DNA from: a virus
Direction: 5' to 3' (one strand)
DNA length: 25,753 nt
Virus record (IMG/VR): IMGVR_UViG_3300034071_000067
Span: 1 to 25,753 of that record
The stretch's first letter is position 1. Each line of letters begins with the position of its first letter. Shown in pieces: positions 2,648 to 12,339 of the stretch. The notes under the pieces are model-generated. The model saw nothing but the letters and a program-made list of their open reading frames with translations, did not search any database and was not told where the DNA came from. A program made the position numbers and the translations under genes.

Positions 2648-3285
2648 AAAATATATTACTCATTATACTAACTGCTATAATTTTAGCTATTGCAGGATTT
2701 GGCAAATATGTGGAGCAAACTATCAAGCAAACTGCCATTAGTGTTTATCAGGATAGGTTAGTGCCTCAACCTTATTTGAGCCGAAAGTTTGACTATTACG
2801 GCTCAACAATCCAAGACCAAATAAAAGTTATCAAAGGTGGCAAAATAGATTTAGTGGCTATACAGAAAGAGAAGGCAATAACTGATACCATGTGGGCAGC
2901 TTATCTAAAGACTTATCAAACAGAAGAAGAAAAAGAGGTAAGCAATAAAGCCCAAATATATATTGATATGGCTGATATTTATTTTGAGCAGATTTCTAAA
3001 GACGATATTATTACAGACGATGAAGCAAAAGAAATGGATGCAAAAATCTATCCTGTCTTAGAGTATGTAAATAACTTAATAAATATTCAAACTACTATTG
3101 GAGCAAAAGACACTAAGGGAATGATAGCTTTATTAGATAAGTTTTCAACATTTATGATAGGGGCTATTGCTTTGGCTATTGCTCTTTTAGGTTCTATTGT
3201 TTATGATATGTTAAAAAAACCTGCTTTGCCTAAGAAACCTGTAAGAAAAGTAACAGTTAAAAAGGTGGCAGTTAAAAAGAAATGA
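2644..3285 (+). CDS. Two-segment membrane protein with chemoreceptor-type four-helix-bundle sensor-like domain, 213 aa
   Basis: Residues 4-20 form an N-terminal membrane helix and about 170-188 a second one, leaving an external domain of roughly 150 residues between them. That domain starts YQDRLVPQPYLSRKFDYYG (35-53) and continues QDQIKVIKGGKID and MWAAYLKTYQTEEEKE (83-98). These closely resemble the 4HB_MCP sensor domain of methyl-accepting chemotaxis proteins (Y.dRl.Pl..l......y...i.d.i..v..g....W..Y..ty.t.eE). No HAMP or signalling domain follows; instead there is a 23-residue Lys/Pro-rich cytoplasmic tail. Both ends overlap neighbours by 4 bases. It could be a decoy receptor subunit, an envelope sensor for lysis, or a structural membrane protein. 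The match is by eye. Confidence 0.7.
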   Translation: MKNILLIILTAIILAIAGFGKYVEQTIKQTAISVYQDRLVPQPYLSRKFDYYGSTIQDQIKVIKGGKIDLVAIQKEKAITDTMWAAYLKTYQTEEEKEVSNKAQIYIDMADIYFEQISKDDIITDDEAKEMDAKIYPVLEYVNNLINIQTTIGAKDTKGMIALLDKFSTFMIGAIALAIALLGSIVYDMLKKPALPKKPVRKVTVKKVAVKKK

Positions 3286-3716
3286 GATTAATATTTATTT
3301 TATTATTTTTTATTACTTTCGAATCAAAGGCTCAGTATTATATTATGGTTGCTCCTAATGTAGCGTTTGATACTAAGTTACAGGATACAAAAAACCTTTT
3401 AGGTGCGACTGTTGAAGCAGGAAGATATTTTGGAAATGTAGCAGTTGGCATTAATAGTGGGTGGTGGACATTTGATAAAAAAGATTTTTACCAAGAAGCT
3501 ATGGGTACCTTTCCTATTTATCAAAGATTTAGCGTAAGTGCAGCTATTGGATATTTTTATTACCATAAAGATATTACGATGGAGTATGATTTTAATTATA
3601 CAGTGCCTATAAAAAAAGAATATTCATTCGTGTTAAGTTATGGTGCTCAGAGTGCTTTTGGAGATACATTTGCATCTTATTCAATAGGAATTAATAAGGA
3701 CTTTAAAATTAAATAA
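3282..3716 (+). CDS. Secreted outer-membrane beta-barrel candidate, 144 aa
   Basis: Residues 1-17 are a signal peptide (MRLIFILLFFITFESKA), with likely cleavage before QYY, the usual Bacteroidota pattern (KAQ). The mature 127 residues alternate hydrophobic/aromatic and polar residues in strand-length stretches: YYIMVAPNVAFD, GATVEAGRYFGNVAVGINSG, FSVSAAIGYFYYHK, YSFVLSYGAQSAFG, FASYSIGINKDFKIK. Aromatics cluster near strand ends, as in small six- to eight-stranded barrels. I recognise no named family. It overlaps the preceding gene by ATGA. Phage-coded surface barrels can block superinfection or alter adsorption, and a place in a lysis block could also mean a role in outer-membrane disruption; both are inference. 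Confidence 0.65.
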   Translation: MRLIFILLFFITFESKAQYYIMVAPNVAFDTKLQDTKNLLGATVEAGRYFGNVAVGINSGWWTFDKKDFYQEAMGTFPIYQRFSVSAAIGYFYYHKDITMEYDFNYTVPIKKEYSFVLSYGAQSAFGDTFASYSIGINKDFKIK

Positions 3717-4829: not shown

Positions 4830-4858
4830 TATATTTGTATAAATTAAATCAAAATCAA
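4830..4858 (+). promoter_or_regulatory. Bacteroidota-type promoter and AT-rich leader before the fibre operon
   Basis: TATATTTG at 4830-4837 matches the Bacteroidota -7 consensus TAnnTTTG and is followed by TATAAATTAAATCAAAATCA up to the ATG at 4859. The same TAnnTTTGTATAAATTAAAT string occurs at 17304, with a close variant at 10661. No good -33 TTG is placed at the standard 19-base spacing. It lies in a 43-base gap after the spanin candidate. Confidence 0.6.
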
Positions 4859-5089
4859 ATGGCAAATTTAACAGTAGAAGAATTAGACTTTATTCAAAAA
4901 GGAACGCAAGAATTTACTAAGATTAAAATTACTCTTGGTGACCTTGAATTAAAAAAACAAGGACTGTTTTCTCAAGCAGAGAAGATAATGGAGGCTTTTG
5001 CTAATAACGAAAAGTTGCTTATTTCAAAGTATGGAGAAAACTCTGTTATCAATATGCAAACAGGAGAGGTAACTCAAAAAGAAAAGTAA
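4859..5089 (+). CDS. Small helical protein with YGENSVINMQTGEVT ending, 76 aa
   Basis: The ATG at 4859 is chosen because it follows the promoter-leader unit at 4830-4858; a TTG at 4835 lies inside the -7 box and cannot be the start. Residues 5-60 form a charged helix (EELDFIQKGTQEFTKIKITL and following). The end YGENSVINMQTGEVTQKEK resembles a familiar C-terminus of small Bacteroidota phage proteins (YG.naVINiqTGEVt) of unknown function. There is no Cys or membrane segment. It is first in the fibre operon and its stop is one base before the mini-fibre start. Confidence 0.7.
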   Translation: MANLTVEELDFIQKGTQEFTKIKITLGDLELKKQGLFSQAEKIMEAFANNEKLLISKYGENSVINMQTGEVTQKEK

Positions 5090-5090
5090 A

Positions 5091-5357
5091 ATGGGAAAAA
5101 TAAACTCATATCCTAATAATGCAACACCGCAGTTAAATGATAAACTTGTAGGCACAAGGGTTGGTAACACACCTGCAAATGCAACTTATAATTTTACTCC
5201 GGCAGCTTTATTGCAATTATTTCAGCAGAACTTTAACGCTGCAGCTATAGTAATAGCTGACGTTCCTGTTTATGCAGATAATGCTGCTGCTTTATTAGGT
5301 GGATTAGTTGTAGGTCAGCTTTATAGAACAGGTGATTACTTAAAAGTAGTTCATTAA
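5091..5357 (+). CDS. Mini-fibre protein sharing the large fibre's N-terminal module, 88 aa
   Basis: Residues 3-46 (INSYPNNATPQLNDKLVGTR, then TYNFTPAALLQLFQQ) match the N-terminus of the adjacent 1661-aa fibre (ISTYEVVPVPKLADKLIGTS, then TYNFTLQELLNLFIP) almost position by position. Instead of a shaft it has only about 40 more residues, ending VPVYADNAAALLGGLVVGQL then YRTGDYLKVVH. That ending recurs, from memory, at the C-termini of other Bacteroidota phage virion proteins. It may use the same virion socket as the large fibre and act as a short fibre, plug or cap. A duplicated remnant of a longer fibre is the alternative, but the intact frame and well-formed ending argue against decay. Confidence 0.75.
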   Translation: MGKINSYPNNATPQLNDKLVGTRVGNTPANATYNFTPAALLQLFQQNFNAAAIVIADVPVYADNAAALLGGLVVGQLYRTGDYLKVVH

Positions 5358-5369
5358 AATTCATATCTA

Positions 5370-8300
5370 ATGTCAAGGATTAGTACATACGAAGTTGTAC
5401 CTGTACCTAAATTAGCCGACAAGCTAATTGGTACAAGCGTTGGTGGCGAAATAGAAGATGTAACGTACAACTTTACGTTACAAGAATTGTTGAATCTATT
5501 TATTCCTTTTATTCCTGCAAATAACTTGCAAGGGGTTTTAGATTTTGGCAATACAGCTACACAAGATATTAATCTATTTGGTACAATTACTACTACTAAC
5601 CTTGACGTAACAAACACATCAAATTTATTTATAACTTATTTAAATGATGAGGTTCATATAGTAGGTTCTTTATTTGACTCAAATGATTTTGTTGGTACTG
5701 CCGGTCAAGTTCTTATAAGTACAGGGGCAGGCGTTGAATGGTACAGCCTTCCTCCTATTTTTACTCCCAATTTGCAACAAGTTTTAACTGAAGGCAACAC
5801 ATCAACGGTTGATATTATTCTAACATCAAACCTTAGTGCATTAGATGTCAGCTCAGATACAGCAACTTTTTCTACTGATATAACGATTGACGGAACATTA
5901 ACCGATGGAGCCGCATCAGTTGGTACCTTAGGTAAGGTATTAAGTAGTACCGTAACAGGAGTTCAATGGGTTGATTTACCGTCTTACTCAGCAATTTCTC
6001 CTTTATTTTTTAATTCAGCTACCGGTGTTTTTTCTATTCAAGTAGCAAATAATCTTCAAAATGGTTATTTATCTTCTGCGGATTGGATAAACTTTGATGG
6101 CAAACAACCGGCAGGTAATTATATTACCGCATTAACCGGTGAGGCTACAGCGTCAGGACCGGGTTCAGTTCCTATTACGCTAAACAATGCTTCAGTTATA
6201 GCTAAAGTTTTAACAGGATTAAATGTTACAGGTGGCTCTATATCTGCAACTGATAGTATATTAATAGCATTTGGTAAAGTTCAGAATCAAATAAATGGAT
6301 TATTAGGAGGCGTTCAATACCAAGGCGTATGGAATGCTTTTACAAATAATCCTGTTTTAACAAGTAGTGTTGGAACACAAGGATACTACTACGTTGTAAA
6401 TGTTGCAGGCTCAACTAACTTAAATGGAATTACTGATTGGCAGGTTGGTGATTGGGCTATTTTTAGTGGGGGTGTTTGGCAGAAAGTAGACAATACTGAC
6501 GCTGTTAGTTCGGTAAACGGACAGGTAGGAGCAGTTAGTTTAACTACCGACAATATTCCTGAAGGCGTAACAAATCTTTACTTTTTAAATTCAAGAGCAC
6601 GAACTGCTGTCAGTGCTACATCTCCATTATTATACGATAACTCAACCGGAGTATTTAGTATTCAAGTAGCTAATAGTAGCCAAAGTGGTTATTTAAGCAG
6701 TGCAGATTGGATAGCATTTGATGGTAAACAAAACCTTTTAGGGGGGACCGGATTAGTTAAATCTACCGCAGGAACAATATCATATATTACAGATAACTCA
6801 ACAAATTGGAACACTGCATACAATGACAGTATTGTTAGTGCTGCAGTTACAGGTACCGGCACAAAAACATTGACATTAACCCAACAAGATGCAGGAACAA
6901 TTACAGCGTCTTGGACAGACTTGGGTCTAACATCAGTAGCCTTATCAATGCCAAGTGCATTCAATGTTGCTAATAGTCCACTAACTGCCAATGGAACATT
7001 AGCTGTTACTGCAATAGGTCTTGCGTCTCAATATATTCGTGGAGATGGAACATTGGCTAACTTCCCAACAGATGGAGGTGGCGGTGGTTCTTCCGTATCA
7101 TATTATTTGAATGGCTCTGTAAATCAGGGAACATTTGGTGGCAATACGTATTATGAGATGAGTAAAACTCCTATTTTTGGAGCAGGAACTGATTTTAATA
7201 TTGCTGCTAATGGTTACATTGCTCAATTTTTAACGGATGCGAATGACCCTAATGCCTTATTAATTCCGGCAGGAAATTGGAATTTTGAAACTTATTTTAG
7301 TGCTTCTTCGGGTGGCGGTTCTCCTACTTTTTATATTGAACTTTATAAATTTGATGGAGTTGTATTTACTTTAATTGCAAGTAATTCTGCAACTCCTGAA
7401 TTAATATCATTAGGAACTAATATAAATCCATACTTTTCAGCTTTAGCGGTTCCTGAAACTGTGTTGACAGCTACTGATAGATTAGCAATAAGAATTTATG
7501 TTAATCATTCAGGAAGGACAATTACGTTACACACCGAGAATAGTCATTTATGTCAAGTCATTACTACGTTTACCACAGGAATACAGGCATTAAACGGACT
7601 AACCAAACAAACACAATATTTTGCGGTTGGCACAAGTGGAACTGACTTTAATATTTCAAGCGCAACAGATACTCATACGTTTAATATTCCAAGTGCAAGT
7701 GCAAGTAATAGAGGTTTAATAACCACAGGTTCACAAACAATTGCAGGAGAAAAGACATTTACTGCTATAAGAACTAATATAAATGGAGCCTTAGTAATAA
7801 AATCGGGTGTTGCAACAGGTGTATCTATTGAATCATTTACGGCTAATTATTTATCATTAGGAGTTACTAATGGAGTTTCTACATATACTCAAGATTTAAT
7901 TTTTCCTGCAAGTAGTGCAAATGTTTATACATTCCCATCGGCATCAGGTACAATAGCTTTAGTAGGTGGAGCAGGTGTAGGAACGGTAACAAGCGTCGCT
8001 GCTTTAACTTTAGGAACAACAGGTACTGATTTATCATCAACAGTAGCTAACGGTACTACAACGCCTGTAATTACCCTGAACGTACCAACTGCATCGGCTA
8101 CTAATCGTGGTGCATTATCATCTGCTGATTGGACTTCCTTTAATGGAAAGCAAGATGCGTTATCAGGAACAGGGATAGTAAAATCAACTGCTGGAGTTAT
8201 CAGTTATTTAACAGACCCTTTGCCTATCGCAAATGGAGGTACAGGAAGTTCAACGCAAAACTTTGTTGATTTAACTACTGACCAAACTATTGCAGGATTT

Positions 8301-10355
8301 AAAACCTTTTCATATACTATAAAATTAACAAATGGTACTTCTAATGCGTTTAGTTTTGAAAGCGGTACGACAGGATTTTATGCGAGTTTAAAAGCACCTG
8401 CTGGTCTTGGTGCAGGTATAATAGTTACACTCCCATCTGCCACAGGAACATTAGCATTAACATCTGATATCCCTGCCAATCCTGTTGGTGGAACAGGTAC
8501 AACAAACAATCTACCTAAGTTTACAGGTGCAAGTACAATAGGAGATAGTGCTATTACTGATGATGGAACTACTGTTACTTTAGTAAGCAGAGCATTATCG
8601 GGTACAAGTGCTACGTTTAGTTCGACTGCAACTGCATCAGCTTTCATTCCAAGCGGTGCATCAGTTCCTACAAACGGAATGTATTTATCGGCTGCAAATA
8701 CTTTAAACTTTGCTACTAATTCAACTAATCGGTTAAGTATCACATCAGGTGGTGATGTGCTTGTTGGTAATGCTACATCGTCAGGTTCTGGTCTTTTATC
8801 AATAGCGGTTGGAAATTCAGTAGGTGGAGCAATAAAAGTCCATGATACAGATGGAGGTGGCACAATTGAAATGCAAGCGTCTGGAGGGGCAACTTATTTA
8901 TTTGCAACAACGAATCATCCATTATTAATTGGTACAAATAATACCGAACGTATGCGTATCACATCAGGTGGTAATGTTGGGATTGGAACATCAAGTCCAA
9001 GTGTAAGACTCCAAGTTTTAGGGGGAACAATTACAACTAACACTCAATCAACTTATGCTTTTGGCGTTGGAAATTCAAGTGGTTATGATTTAACTTTTGG
9101 TACAGATGCTTCCTTTGCATATATACAATCATGGGCAAGTAAACCATTACAGATTAATAATCAAGGGAATAACTTGATATTAAATGCAACCGCTGGTAAC
9201 GTACTAATAGGAACTACATCAGATAATGGAGCAAAGTTTCAAGTATCAGGAGCAGCTACGTTTAGTGGTAGAATAAATGGTGTAGTAGGTGGAACTGCTT
9301 TCAATACAGCAGGTTTATGGTTACAAGGTTCTTCAAGTACTGATGGTATTGCAATAGGTGGAACAGGCAGTGCAGATAAAACTATTGATACTTATGGAGG
9401 AACTTTAAAAATAAATGCTACATCAGGTAATGGTTTATCAGTTACAGGAACAGCTACGTTTAGTTCAGGTGTAGGAATAAATGGAGCAACATTACAAACA
9501 GGATTAGGGGCAGGATTGACTATTGAGGGAGGAAGTTATGCACCTTTATATCTTTCTAATTCAGGAACCTTAAGAGGTTTCTTAGCAGCCTATTCAGGTG
9601 GTATTTTATTAAGTGCATCAACAGGTATTTTATCTCTTAATAATGCTGGTGGTAACGTATTAATAGGAACAACTACAGACGCAGGATATAAATTAGATGT
9701 TAATGCGGGAGGTGGTAGTGTAAGATTTAATGGAACAATAGGAGATAAATTAGTTTTATATAATAGCGGAAACAATGGCGGAACTAATGGTATATATATT
9801 GATTCTGATATTTATCCTGCTATAAGATTTAATAACAGAGTAGGATATGCAGGTACTGCTAAAATAGTATATAATACTTATGCTACAGGATATGGTGCAG
9901 CATCTTTAAATGGTTCATTTATAATGCAGGGTCCTAACGCTTTACAGTTTTCAAGTGGTGGGGATAATGTTAGGATGACTATTGATGCAAGTGGTAATAT
10001 AGGTGCTCCTACTGGAACTAATATCTATAATGCATCTGACTTACGATTAAAACGCAACATAACAACTATAACTGATGGATTAGATAAAATATTAAATCTA
10101 AATCCCGTTAAATTTAATTGGATTGAAAATTATGTTTCATCTGAAGAAAATAAAGATATGTTTGGATTTATAGCTCAAGAAATTCAAAAAATAATTCCTG
10201 AAGCTGTTGAATCTTTTGCTGATGGGAATTTAATAACAGTAGGAAATACAATAATTGATAATCCTCTTCGTGTTAATGAAAAATTTATTATCCCAATATT
10301 AGTAAAAGCTATACAAGAATTATCAGCAAAAATTACACAATTAGAAAATAAATAA
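5370..10355 (+). CDS. Large tail/receptor-binding fibre with C-terminal peptidase S74 chaperone, 1661 aa
   Basis: Domains in order: an N-terminal anchor module (about 1-50) shared with the mini-fibre; a repetitive Thr/Ser/Gly/Asn-rich shaft with three copies of LSSADW..F.GKQ (at 6066-6107, 6690-6730 and 8111-8153) and paired GTG(L/I)VKSTAG.ISY.TD units; a globular C1q/TNF-like beta domain at about 575-735 (PAGNWNFETYF, then HSGRTITLHTENSHLCQVIT); more shaft with repeated ITSGG(D/N)V..G and GNVLIGTT.D.G units at about 1122, 1195, 1272 and 1424. The C-terminal S74 domain begins SDLRLKRNI; Ser1556 and Lys1561 have the spacing of the autocleavage dyad known in endosialidase chaperones. The chaperone should trimerise the fibre and then cut itself off. 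Confidence 0.93.
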   Translation: MSRISTYEVVPVPKLADKLIGTSVGGEIEDVTYNFTLQELLNLFIPFIPANNLQGVLDFGNTATQDINLFGTITTTNLDVTNTSNLFITYLNDEVHIVGSLFDSNDFVGTAGQVLISTGAGVEWYSLPPIFTPNLQQVLTEGNTSTVDIILTSNLSALDVSSDTATFSTDITIDGTLTDGAASVGTLGKVLSSTVTGVQWVDLPSYSAISPLFFNSATGVFSIQVANNLQNGYLSSADWINFDGKQPAGNYITALTGEATASGPGSVPITLNNASVIAKVLTGLNVTGGSISATDSILIAFGKVQNQINGLLGGVQYQGVWNAFTNNPVLTSSVGTQGYYYVVNVAGSTNLNGITDWQVGDWAIFSGGVWQKVDNTDAVSSVNGQVGAVSLTTDNIPEGVTNLYFLNSRARTAVSATSPLLYDNSTGVFSIQVANSSQSGYLSSADWIAFDGKQNLLGGTGLVKSTAGTISYITDNSTNWNTAYNDSIVSAAVTGTGTKTLTLTQQDAGTITASWTDLGLTSVALSMPSAFNVANSPLTANGTLAVTAIGLASQYIRGDGTLANFPTDGGGGGSSVSYYLNGSVNQGTFGGNTYYEMSKTPIFGAGTDFNIAANGYIAQFLTDANDPNALLIPAGNWNFETYFSASSGGGSPTFYIELYKFDGVVFTLIASNSATPELISLGTNINPYFSALAVPETVLTATDRLAIRIYVNHSGRTITLHTENSHLCQVITTFTTGIQALNGLTKQTQYFAVGTSGTDFNISSATDTHTFNIPSASASNRGLITTGSQTIAGEKTFTAIRTNINGALVIKSGVATGVSIESFTANYLSLGVTNGVSTYTQDLIFPASSANVYTFPSASGTIALVGGAGVGTVTSVAALTLGTTGTDLSSTVANGTTTPVITLNVPTASATNRGALSSADWTSFNGKQDALSGTGIVKSTAGVISYLTDPLPIANGGTGSSTQNFVDLTTDQTIAGFKTFSYTIKLTNGTSNAFSFESGTTGFYASLKAPAGLGAGIIVTLPSATGTLALTSDIPANPVGGTGTTNNLPKFTGASTIGDSAITDDGTTVTLVSRALSGTSATFSSTATASAFIPSGASVPTNGMYLSAANTLNFATNSTNRLSITSGGDVLVGNATSSGSGLLSIAVGNSVGGAIKVHDTDGGGTIEMQASGGATYLFATTNHPLLIGTNNTERMRITSGGNVGIGTSSPSVRLQVLGGTITTNTQSTYAFGVGNSSGYDLTFGTDASFAYIQSWASKPLQINNQGNNLILNATAGNVLIGTTSDNGAKFQVSGAATFSGRINGVVGGTAFNTAGLWLQGSSSTDGIAIGGTGSADKTIDTYGGTLKINATSGNGLSVTGTATFSSGVGINGATLQTGLGAGLTIEGGSYAPLYLSNSGTLRGFLAAYSGGILLSASTGILSLNNAGGNVLIGTTTDAGYKLDVNAGGGSVRFNGTIGDKLVLYNSGNNGGTNGIYIDSDIYPAIRFNNRVGYAGTAKIVYNTYATGYGAASLNGSFIMQGPNALQFSSGGDNVRMTIDASGNIGAPTGTNIYNASDLRLKRNITTITDGLDKILNLNPVKFNWIENYVSSEENKDMFGFIAQEIQKIIPEAVESFADGNLITVGNTIIDNPLRVNEKFIIPILVKAIQELSAKITQLENK

Positions 10356-10358
10356 ATT

Positions 10359-10655
10359 ATGAAACAAATCACACCTATCTCAATATGGGATAATGGCATA
10401 GTCCAAGAAGCAACAGTATTAAATGCTTATGCTATTAATGACAATTTAACTACATCAGCAACATTTTACTACACTCTTTTAAGTGAGAGTATGCAACTAC
10501 TTGCTCAAGGTAATTTAACTATGTCAGGAGATGATTATGATGCGTGGCAAACTAATGACTACGCTTATAATTGGGTTGCAGCACAACTTAATTTAACTAT
10601 TATAGGAGATTACGTTCCTCCTGTTGTTGAGCCAATAGTTGAAGTTTCAGAATAA
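10359..10655 (+). CDS. Conserved phage protein downstream of the fibre, 98 aa
   Basis: The start ATG lies 3 bases after the fibre stop. The sequence MKQITPISIWDNGIVQEATV, then YAINDNLTTSATFYYTLLSE, then NDYAYNWVAAQLNLTIIGDY matches a familiar Bacteroidota phage family (NG....AT.L.a..iNDNL..sAtFyY.L......GNL.m.G.dY..W..NdYAw.wva..LnLTii). Its function is unknown to me. The fold looks mainly beta in the first 60 residues, followed by an acidic Pro/Val-rich tail. Position suggests a fibre cofactor, fibre-tip or virion protein. It is the last gene before the promoter-like unit at 10661. Confidence 0.75.
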   Translation: MKQITPISIWDNGIVQEATVLNAYAINDNLTTSATFYYTLLSESMQLLAQGNLTMSGDDYDAWQTNDYAYNWVAAQLNLTIIGDYVPPVVEPIVEVSE

Positions 10656-11079: not shown

Positions 11080-11306
11080 TGGACATTCGTAAAATATCAA
11101 TAGGACCGGACTACAAGGGTGGTGCCATGCATTATCTTGTTGGTCAAAAAGTTCTTGGAGATACGAGTGAAATTCATCTTATAAAAATTGATGGAAAGAA
11201 AAATTCAATCAAAATTTACATCATAAACTTGAATAAGGAAGTGATACTTTGGAAAGAGTTCACTTCCACTATTCCAATTTCAATTGAATATAACATTAAC
11301 TTCTAA
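11079..11306 (+). CDS. Conserved small phage protein, 75 aa
   Basis: It begins MDIRKISIGPDYKGGAMHYL and ends STIPISIEYNINF, beta-rich throughout. I recall close relatives in Bacteroidota phages with the same opening (MDIRKISIG.DYK.gaMHY.vGQ.vl) and ending (PiSIEYNinF) but no assigned function. No Cys, signal peptide or membrane segment is present. The start shares its A with the upstream TAA, and its own stop overlaps the next start in the same way, so translation is probably coupled across three genes. It may be a partner of the GroES-like protein next to it. Confidence 0.75.
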   Translation: MDIRKISIGPDYKGGAMHYLVGQKVLGDTSEIHLIKIDGKKNSIKIYIINLNKEVILWKEFTSTIPISIEYNINF

Positions 11307-11869
11307 TGAGGTCGCCATTCTATTTCATAGCCAAGCCGGTTAATGGAAAGCGATACGATAATACAAAAGAGATAGGTGGTGTTGACTTTATTGTCAGCAC
11401 CTCTGAAGAAGACCACAGGTTTTCTAACCGATTTGCAGAAGTCGTTGAGTTGCCATTAGATTATTCCGGACCTATTCAAAAGTCAGATACTCTTCTTGTA
11501 CACCATAATGTCTTTAAGTTTTATAATGACATGAAGGGTAGACAAAAGAGTGGTAAGTCTTTTTTTAAAGACGACCTATTTTTTATTGAGCCTGACCAAT
11601 TCTTTATGTATAAGCACAACGCTACGTGGTATGCTTATGATAGATACTGTTTTGTTAAACCAATTGGCATTACAGAGAGTTATATCAAGAAGCCTTTCTC
11701 AGAGGAGCCACTGATGGGCATAATGAAGTACCCTAACGAATACTTATTAAAGAAAGGTATAAACCCCGGTGATATGATTTGCTTCTCTCCTGACAGCGAA
11801 TATGAGTTCACAGTAGATGATGAAAAGTTGTACAGAATGTATGACCATCAAATAACAATGAAATTATGA
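11306..11869 (+). CDS. Double GroES-like (co-chaperonin-type) protein, 187 aa
   Basis: The protein appears to have two GroES-like beta domains. The first (about 1-110) has FIAKPVNGKRYDNTKEIGGV, a pattern of IQKSDTLLVHHNVFKFYNDM, and a mobile-loop-like basic segment KGRQKSGKSFFKDD. The second begins CFVKPIGI and ends GINPGDMICFSPDSEYEFTV then DDEKLYRMYDHQITMKL, matching the GroES C-terminal logic (v..GD.V.f......ei.dge.y.ri....i). Phages use such proteins (T4 gp31 is the model) to fold capsid protein in the host GroEL. A single GroES is about 95 aa, so the length fits a tandem. The call is by pattern only. Overlaps TAATG upstream and ATGA downstream. Confidence 0.6.
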   Translation: MRSPFYFIAKPVNGKRYDNTKEIGGVDFIVSTSEEDHRFSNRFAEVVELPLDYSGPIQKSDTLLVHHNVFKFYNDMKGRQKSGKSFFKDDLFFIEPDQFFMYKHNATWYAYDRYCFVKPIGITESYIKKPFSEEPLMGIMKYPNEYLLKKGINPGDMICFSPDSEYEFTVDDEKLYRMYDHQITMKL

Positions 11870-12339
11870 ATATGATTACACTTGACAATATAATAAAAGA
11901 CCCGGTTGCTTATGTTGATGACATACACAAGTATGGCTTTCAAGATATTGCAGATGGAGAGAACATATTTAAAAACATTCAGCCAAGAGATAATAACGAT
12001 GAGTTTGCTCAGTACGTTTCTGAACTATTTGACCAATACAGTGTTTCATTTAACTTTGTAAGGAAGTCTCCATTAAATCAGAAAGAGCCAAATTTCATAC
12101 ATACTGATGAAATGATGGGTGATATTACTTGTATTTTATACTTAAATGAACAAGCACCTGACAATGATGGAACAACTATCTACGATGAAGATAAAAATCC
12201 TTTACTTACAATGTACTCTAAATTCAACCGCATGGTTGTATTTAACTCTGATGCCCCACATTCAAGGAATATTCTTGAGAACTTTGGCTCAGGTGAACAA
12301 TCTCGATTGGTTCAGGTAATATTTTTAAAAGCTAAGTAA
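11866..12339 (+). CDS. 2-oxoglutarate/Fe(II)-dependent oxygenase, 157 aa
   Basis: The double-stranded beta-helix iron site is visible: His79 and Asp81 in FIHTDEMMGDITCILYLN, distal His132 in NSDAPHSRN, and Arg147 (SRLVQVIFLK) placed to bind the 2-oxoglutarate carboxylate. The pattern HTDe..gdit.ilYLn......GG/DGtt.Y......f...P....r.v.F.s...H.. is that of the prolyl-4-hydroxylase-like phage oxygenases (DUF6445-like). Substrate cannot be read from sequence: a virion protein, a host protein or a nucleotide are all possible. It is coupled by ATGA to the GroES-like gene and by TAATG to the small-terminase candidate, which hints at a morphogenesis role. Confidence 0.82.
   Translation: MNMITLDNIIKDPVAYVDDIHKYGFQDIADGENIFKNIQPRDNNDEFAQYVSELFDQYSVSFNFVRKSPLNQKEPNFIHTDEMMGDITCILYLNEQAPDNDGTTIYDEDKNPLLTMYSKFNRMVVFNSDAPHSRNILENFGSGEQSRLVQVIFLKAK

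Follow-up and report, generated by a model that had tools for sequence, protein, structure and literature searches.

Receptor-binding proteins (RBPs) of the Klebsiella KP32/KP34 viruses are modular, and several RBP genes are found per phage (PMC6872550). One arrangement described there, group D, is an 'anchor with truncated protein', and the second RBP is proposed to use a short conserved peptide for docking on the anchored protein, at its T4 gp10-like domain (PMC6872550). Sets of several RBPs with anchors and truncated anchored proteins are already known (PMC6872550). In KP32/KP34 the docking partner has the peptide and no anchor, whereas in the phage described below a short protein of 88 aa (mini-fibre) and its partner, a giant fibre, are both anchored. 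By the likeness of their N-termini, the two genes appear to form a shared-anchor RBP set, that is, a homologous N-terminal anchor in at least two fibre genes of one phage. Searches of the mini-fibre for a T4 gp10-like branching domain were made with Pfam and PHROGs, where the KP32/KP34 study had used HHpred; they gave no match, and 88 aa leaves little room for such a domain. Small proteins encoded together with a fibre are also described in work on Alteromonas tail-fibre chaperones, where they are proposed to be transient fibre caps (PMC10579305), and the Pam3 chaperone was placed on the distal part (PMC9608196). The Alteromonas proteins are chaperones of the fibre; the mini-fibre instead bears the N-terminal anchor of the fibre itself.

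The phage and the mini-fibre locus

The window, i.e. the whole stretch of DNA that was analysed, is a 25.7-kb IMG/VR virus record of 25,753 nucleotides, in which terminase, portal and virion proteins match PHROGs; the phage belongs to a group of uncultured phages from freshwater. The genes run in the order endolysin, spanin-like lipoprotein, a small gene, mini-fibre, fibre, small genes, terminase, portal and capsid. Relatives by portal and capsid are MW202828 (portal 76%, capsid 69%), Maribacter phage Panino, the elemo phages of Flavobacterium and several phages of Cellulophaga, one of which is the isolate phi38:1 (Pervagoviridae). The capsid is 40% identical to that of phi38:1 over 99% of its length and 46-51% to those of elemo and Panino; the portal is 46% identical to that of elemo and was also matched in 15 Cellulophaga records. 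The window phage is therefore related to Bacteroidetes podophages and, by homologous portal and capsid sequences, to Pervagoviridae and Elemovirus. The features of the locus are as follows.

4835 to 5089, plus strand: small gene upstream of the mini-fibre, 84 aa counted from a TTG start, a later ATG being the probable start
5091 to 5357, plus strand: mini-fibre gene, 88 aa, with anchor, short linker and C-terminal tip, conserved in IMG/VR contigs
5091 to 5234, plus strand: anchor of the mini-fibre (residues 1-48), common with the fibre, 47% identity over residues 1-45, matched by profile
5265 to 5354, plus strand: tip module of the mini-fibre (residues 59-88), recurring at the C-termini of other phage proteins
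5370 to 10355, plus strand: giant fibre gene, 1661 aa
5370 to 5501, plus strand: anchor of the fibre (residues 1-44), matching the mini-fibre anchor, median dN/dS 0.061
10035 to 10208, plus strand: Peptidase_S74 domain of the fibre (residues 1556-1613), Pfam E 3.3e-16, near the C-terminus
10359 to 10655, plus strand: 98-aa gene after the fibre, with look-alikes (by eye) adjoining tip genes at L078:8135-8482 and L112:5480-5833

The mini-fibre and fibre reading frames stand head to tail, 12 bases apart. The first-pass annotation had proposed that the two proteins share an N-terminal anchor of about 50 residues, aligned nearly position by position. The anchor itself proved real: mini-fibre and fibre residues 1-44 align without gaps and are identical at 21 of 44 positions (counted by eye), and a search of the window's own record gave 47% identity over residues 1-45 (E 8.6e-8). 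The common part extends over about 44-48 residues. The local alignment score is 98, compared with at most 45 for shuffled sequences (n=40), and the likeness goes far beyond chance because the mini-fibre/fibre pair recurs across contigs (see below). The mini-fibre ends in the tip, residues 59-88, for which no counterpart was found in the window's fibre, whereas the fibre has Peptidase_S74 near its end. PHROGs gave no match for the mini-fibre or for fibre residues 1-100, and Pfam none for the mini-fibre; on the whole fibre Pfam returned only Peptidase_S74 and a sub-threshold stretch of 14 residues. When 19 mini-fibres were scanned against PHROGs, the best E-value was 0.031. In bacterial genomes 71 stretches fitted a search pattern, none of them a relative.

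Look-alikes (by eye) of the small upstream gene precede the mini-fibre, directly or one gene off, in L052, L058, L079, L195, L200 and L203; in L208 such a look-alike stands before a single anchored protein. The product of the 98-aa gene is possibly a fibre accessory protein that travels with the fibre/tip system. Several other genes of the window drew attention. In the lysis region (3282-3716), a 144-aa protein begins much like a signal peptide and has aromatic residues repeating in the manner of a small outer-membrane barrel (by eye); it had no match in the PHROG scan and could alter the host surface or lysis. Between fibre and terminase, a 157-aa protein (11866-12339) shows a pattern like that of 2-oxoglutarate/iron oxygenases (by eye); the PHROGs it matches carry the labels minor coat protein and DNA endonuclease V. 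The 187-aa protein at 11306-11869 lies about where relatives have an annotated GroES/cpn10 gene, and a GroEL-like frame was seen by eye at 3289 of L224, from a relative.

Conservation of the gene pair

Searching with the mini-fibre retrieved 28 viral contigs, and a mini-fibre profile found 294 places, the best 80 of which were taken further. The reverse search with the fibre anchor yielded 47 loci, comprising 46 with a fibre-type frame and one, L210, that is a mini-fibre at a contig end. In 42 of these 46 contigs, some of which are nearly identical to one another, an intact mini-fibre immediately precedes the fibre, which starts 12-17 positions after it. Related phages thus contain the anchor-sharing pairs whose search had been recommended in the first-pass annotation. 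Loss of the gene as a pseudogene in close relatives, which had been named there as counting against the proposal, was not seen. The remaining four contigs differ: in L206 and L207 a 388-aa anchored protein takes the place of the mini-fibre, and in L208 and L209 the mini-fibre is absent and a single anchored protein is present. The relative MW202828 also does without a mini-fibre. In the close group the mini-fibre is 87-89 aa long, those of L022 and L024 coming to 109 only when counted from an earlier TTG, and complete fibres beside mini-fibres range from 924 to 2469 aa. A 'length-varied' adhesion system, another of the early suggestions, therefore holds as a description of the anatomy. Gene order varies in two contigs: L071 has an anchored 1948-aa frame about 13 kb upstream of the mini-fibre, and in L046 the mini-fibre follows the fibre.

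Seventeen records, picked by hand and not at random, were searched over their whole length for mini-fibres and anchored frames. Each of the 17 has one mini-fibre, and 12 of them hold one or more other anchored frames as well. No further anchored frame is present in the other five, four of which are 10-46 kb long. The fifth, G001, is 61 kb long, and several members of its group are 60-64 kb. G001, a record that may be incomplete, was checked with the fibre anchor and along its whole length, and nothing but the mini-fibre matched the anchor below E 1. Its mini-fibre is at the usual place, with the small upstream genes before it and the small pre-terminase genes after it. In this record without an anchored fibre, the frame at L079:4083-5090, upstream of the mini-fibre, encodes a 335-aa protein whose start resembles PKD/BspA-type surface proteins (by eye); it is a candidate adhesin in the place of the fibre.

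Genes matching the anchor profile are also found in isolated phages. In elemoF (Elemovirus, a Flavobacterium phage) two consecutive genes, of 157 and 398 aa, match it with E-values of 3.8e-14 and 2.1e-10, and the start of gp087 of phi38:1 matches it with E 6.7e-6. These proteins match the anchor, but none of them is a mini-fibre composed of anchor plus tip.

Selection and history of the two anchors

Pairwise dN/dS was computed for 28 genomes (378 pairs, of which 323 were usable for the mini-fibre overall and 331 for the tip). The median is 0.18 for the mini-fibre as a whole, with 0.186 in its anchor and 0.16 in its tip, and 0.061 for the fibre anchor; all values are approximate because dS approaches saturation (mean pS about 0.6). 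The mini-fibre is under purifying selection, and the fibre anchor is about threefold more constrained than the mini-fibre anchor (0.061 vs 0.186). In a tree of 56 anchors (47 different), mini-fibres and fibres are split by a single branch with support values of 98/91, recovered in 96% of 200 bootstrap trees; since the tree is built from few columns, its inner forks are weak. Mean identity of the mini-fibre anchor to the fibre of its own genome is 0.568, compared with 0.567 to the fibres of other genomes, and in 6 of 28 genomes no other fibre matches it better than its own. The simplest account of these relationships would be one old duplication followed by separate evolution with little sign of exchange. 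Separate clades with little exchange speak for distinct roles or sites and against freely interchangeable subunits. As the two anchors have diverged, mini-fibre and fibre may use different sites.

The tip module

The second half of the mini-fibre, which had been passed over in the first-pass annotation, is a widespread C-terminal module. After two further seeds were added to the search, 157 reading frames (107 distinct) with a tip were collected. The 106 distinct proteins with a closed C-terminal end are 58-1329 aa long, and the tip is followed by no residue in 58 of them, by one in 44, by two in two, by three in one and by ten in one. We scanned ten long tip proteins against PHROGs and obtained matches to tail spike (L090, L122 and L125), tail fibre (L131), virion structural protein (L125 and L155) and internal virion protein (L137); the sole match of L134 was to a PHROG of unknown function, and L127 matched none. 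The long tip protein of L110 contains YadA-head repeats and that of L121 a GDSL lipase. None of the ten matches Peptidase_S74 at E 0.01. Given its C-terminal position and the absence of S74 from the long tip proteins, the tip occupies the place where other fibres, including that of the window, have S74, and so is an alternative fibre end. The motif 'GNVGIGT..P...L.V.G' precedes the tip in L131 and L155 and is present in the window's fibre (by eye). Mean column identity of the tip is 55% (51 tips, filtered at 85% identity).

Two known modules offer themselves for comparison. The Peptidase_S74 intramolecular chaperone (PF13884) is, like the tip, a C-terminal fibre module; the S74 model, however, has 58 residues and the tip about 30, and 0 of 10 long tip proteins match S74. 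The foldon of T4 fibritin, a C-terminal trimeriser of about 30 residues with a hairpin, resembles the tip in size and in its hairpin (that of the tip coming from a monomer model), but a relation in sequence is not detectable. Homology to the foldon, which was considered because of the tip motif G(Q/N).Y....GE, was rejected: the hhalign score of 7.2 compares with a null mean of 7.5, and 104 of 200 shuffles score as high.

Recurrence with a second anchor

The 97 distinct short tip proteins were sorted by their N-termini into 74 of the window's anchor type, 14 of a cysteine-rich type, four of a third type and five with other N-termini. For 44 of the 74 window-type proteins an anchored frame starts 12-19 positions downstream; such a frame is found somewhere in the stretch examined for 49 and is absent from it for 25, several of these stretches being short. 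For the cysteine type, a leave-one-out profile detects a further copy of the domain downstream in 13 of 14 cases. On closer inspection the next downstream frame has the domain in all 14, using a profile to which the short proteins of these loci also contribute; the weakest case is L109 (E 0.0015). Counted from the end of the mini-fibre, the domain lies in the first about 20 residues of the next frame in 5 of 14 cases and about 50-131 residues in for the other nine. In the cysteine-type loci (L072, L075, L076, L097-L106, L109, L120 and L123, on contigs of up to 110 kb) a 129-134 aa protein made of cysteine anchor plus tip adjoins a long fibre, which carries collagen-like GTSG repeats in L072, L076 and L098. 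The two anchors are unrelated by profile comparison (hhalign probability 0.7%, 10 columns). The same design, the anchor of the neighbouring fibre joined to a tip, thus recurs with a second, unrelated anchor.

In a shuffle test of likeness to the neighbour, 55 of 94 short tip proteins pass, and the 39 that fail include cut contig ends, neighbours whose starts were called too early and real absences. For the third N-terminal type, proteins of 58-60 aa in L078 and its relatives, a likeness to the neighbour noted by eye was discarded, as its scores do not exceed those of shuffles and 0 of 4 neighbours match. For the five proteins with other N-termini, as for these four, a shared neighbour was not found.

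Structure models

The monomer model of the mini-fibre has a mean pLDDT of 82 and a pTM of 0.45. The tip is modelled confidently, block means over residues 61-88 being 95, 92 and 90, with a helix at 64-69 and a hairpin at 77-80/83-86. In the anchor part the model shows brief strand or bridge segments (19-23, 31-34) and a helix at 37-47; the monomer model of the fibre anchor, unreliable at pLDDT 45, has strands at 18-21 and 33-36 and a helix at 37-44, at like places. A fold search of the mini-fibre model against the PDB gave two matches with E-values of 6.1 and 6.6 and none at Z 2 or more, and the mini-fibre profile reached at best E 0.85 against PDB sequences. No solved relative of the tip was found by sequence, nor by fold from this model, and with no detectable relation to the foldon either, its trimerisation is argued by analogy. 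Against BFVD the model gave 78 matches at E<=10, two of them at E<=0.001. The first matches, short phage proteins of 63-129 aa, apparently belong to the same family as the mini-fibre, as far as predicted folds can tell. Entries F8TUM5 (63 aa) and A0A6G6XV13 (755 aa) fit gp23 of an EBPR podovirus and a protein of Pseudoalteromonas phage AL, respectively, by length alone. There is also a weak fold match (E 0.09, 45 columns) to A0A481YQE4, a 312-aa protein of Marseillevirus LCMAC101; the tip may extend to viruses beyond phages, or the LCMAC101 bin may be contaminated.

A true foldon is present at residues 48-73 of gp085, a fibre-like protein of phi38:1 (E 3e-8 for the best chain containing a foldon and 1.2e-4 for the foldon of fibritin by itself). 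The start of gp085 resembles that of its neighbour, the anchor-bearing gp087 (by eye), so that a small trimerisation unit near that position would have a precedent, a weak one drawn by analogy. That gp085 carries the anchor itself, as had been claimed by eye, was dismissed because the anchor profile finds no match in it.

Possible roles of the mini-fibre

We propose, with a probability of about 0.5, that the mini-fibre acts as a tail fibre of zero length, probably as a trimer, and plugs or caps a site at which fibres attach. It combines the attachment domain of the neighbouring fibre with a C-terminal module of about 30 residues and would have no shaft. Three copies would most likely assemble via the tip, and the trimer would dock by its anchor at a fibre attachment site of the virion, where it would plug or cap the positions that the long fibre leaves free. 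Such a role fits the data because the protein has no known receptor domain, a steady length and a conserved tip, and is present in G001. A 'cap protein' was among the options raised in the first-pass annotation; the combination of anchor and end module and the case of G001 agree with it, and the role itself we infer.

A distinctly less probable explanation is that the mini-fibre is an assembly helper or adaptor, which binds the anchor region of the fibre in a mixed trimer or ring, or keeps the socket while the virion is assembled and aids attachment of the fibre, and may then leave the virion. The close spacing of the genes in 42 of 46 contigs would suit this role, and a similar anchor in a separate clade is what one might expect of a partner subunit. 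However, G001 has the mini-fibre and no fibre with this anchor, the anchored frame of L071 is about 13 kb away and the mini-fibre of L046 follows the fibre, and the anchors of a genome's own mini-fibre and fibre are on average unmatched. We consider it somewhat less probable still that the mini-fibre is a short receptor-binding fibre, the tip of which contacts a common cell-surface molecule once the host has been located by the long fibre. Tail-spike-like and YadA-like proteins end in the tip as well, so a distal position is possible, but the tip is much alike across architectures (mean column identity 55%), unlike a host-range determinant, and 30 residues placed right after the anchor would hardly reach past the socket.

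Mixed occupancy of one socket had been put forward first for this locus; interchangeable long and short fibres would then tune the number of long fibres per virion. Homologous anchors encoded by adjoining genes are compatible with it, yet the two anchor clades, their unequal constraint and the lack of an own-genome match on average count against freely interchangeable subunits, and we regard this version as improbable. That the gene is a functionless remnant, left when a fibre gene was stripped of its shaft, is the least credible reading, since the mini-fibre, for all its resemblance to a fibre minus the middle, is under purifying selection over 28 genomes, keeps a constant 87-89 aa in the close group and is intact in 42 of 46 contigs. 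The preferred reading remains a trimeric plug or cap; no virion proteomics of a phage with a mini-fibre/fibre pair was found in the open-access papers searched.

Implications

In the open-access papers searched we found no description of the mini-fibre, the tip module or the pairing of anchor and end-cap. On that basis, the 88-aa anchor plus end-cap pairing, its conservation, the tip module and the recurrence with a second anchor appear to be new. The tip is a recognisable fibre-end module that, in the window's copy, Pfam and PHROGs do not match. Its small size makes it a candidate trimerisation tag, and it is useful for spotting fibre genes among the hypothetical proteins of uncultured phages.

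The number and length of fibres per virion are usually taken as fixed by symmetry. That a conserved gene next to a giant fibre provides no more than anchor and end-cap suggests that sockets may be filled or closed deliberately by the phage. One could go further and suppose that several unrelated lineages of tailed phages independently fused the anchor of their giant fibre to one mobile, 30-residue trimeric end-cap, a socket plug that sets the number of long fibres; we hold this wider scenario to be rather unlikely. If true, it would amount to a general device by which phages close or regulate their fibre sockets and so set the number of long fibres per virion.
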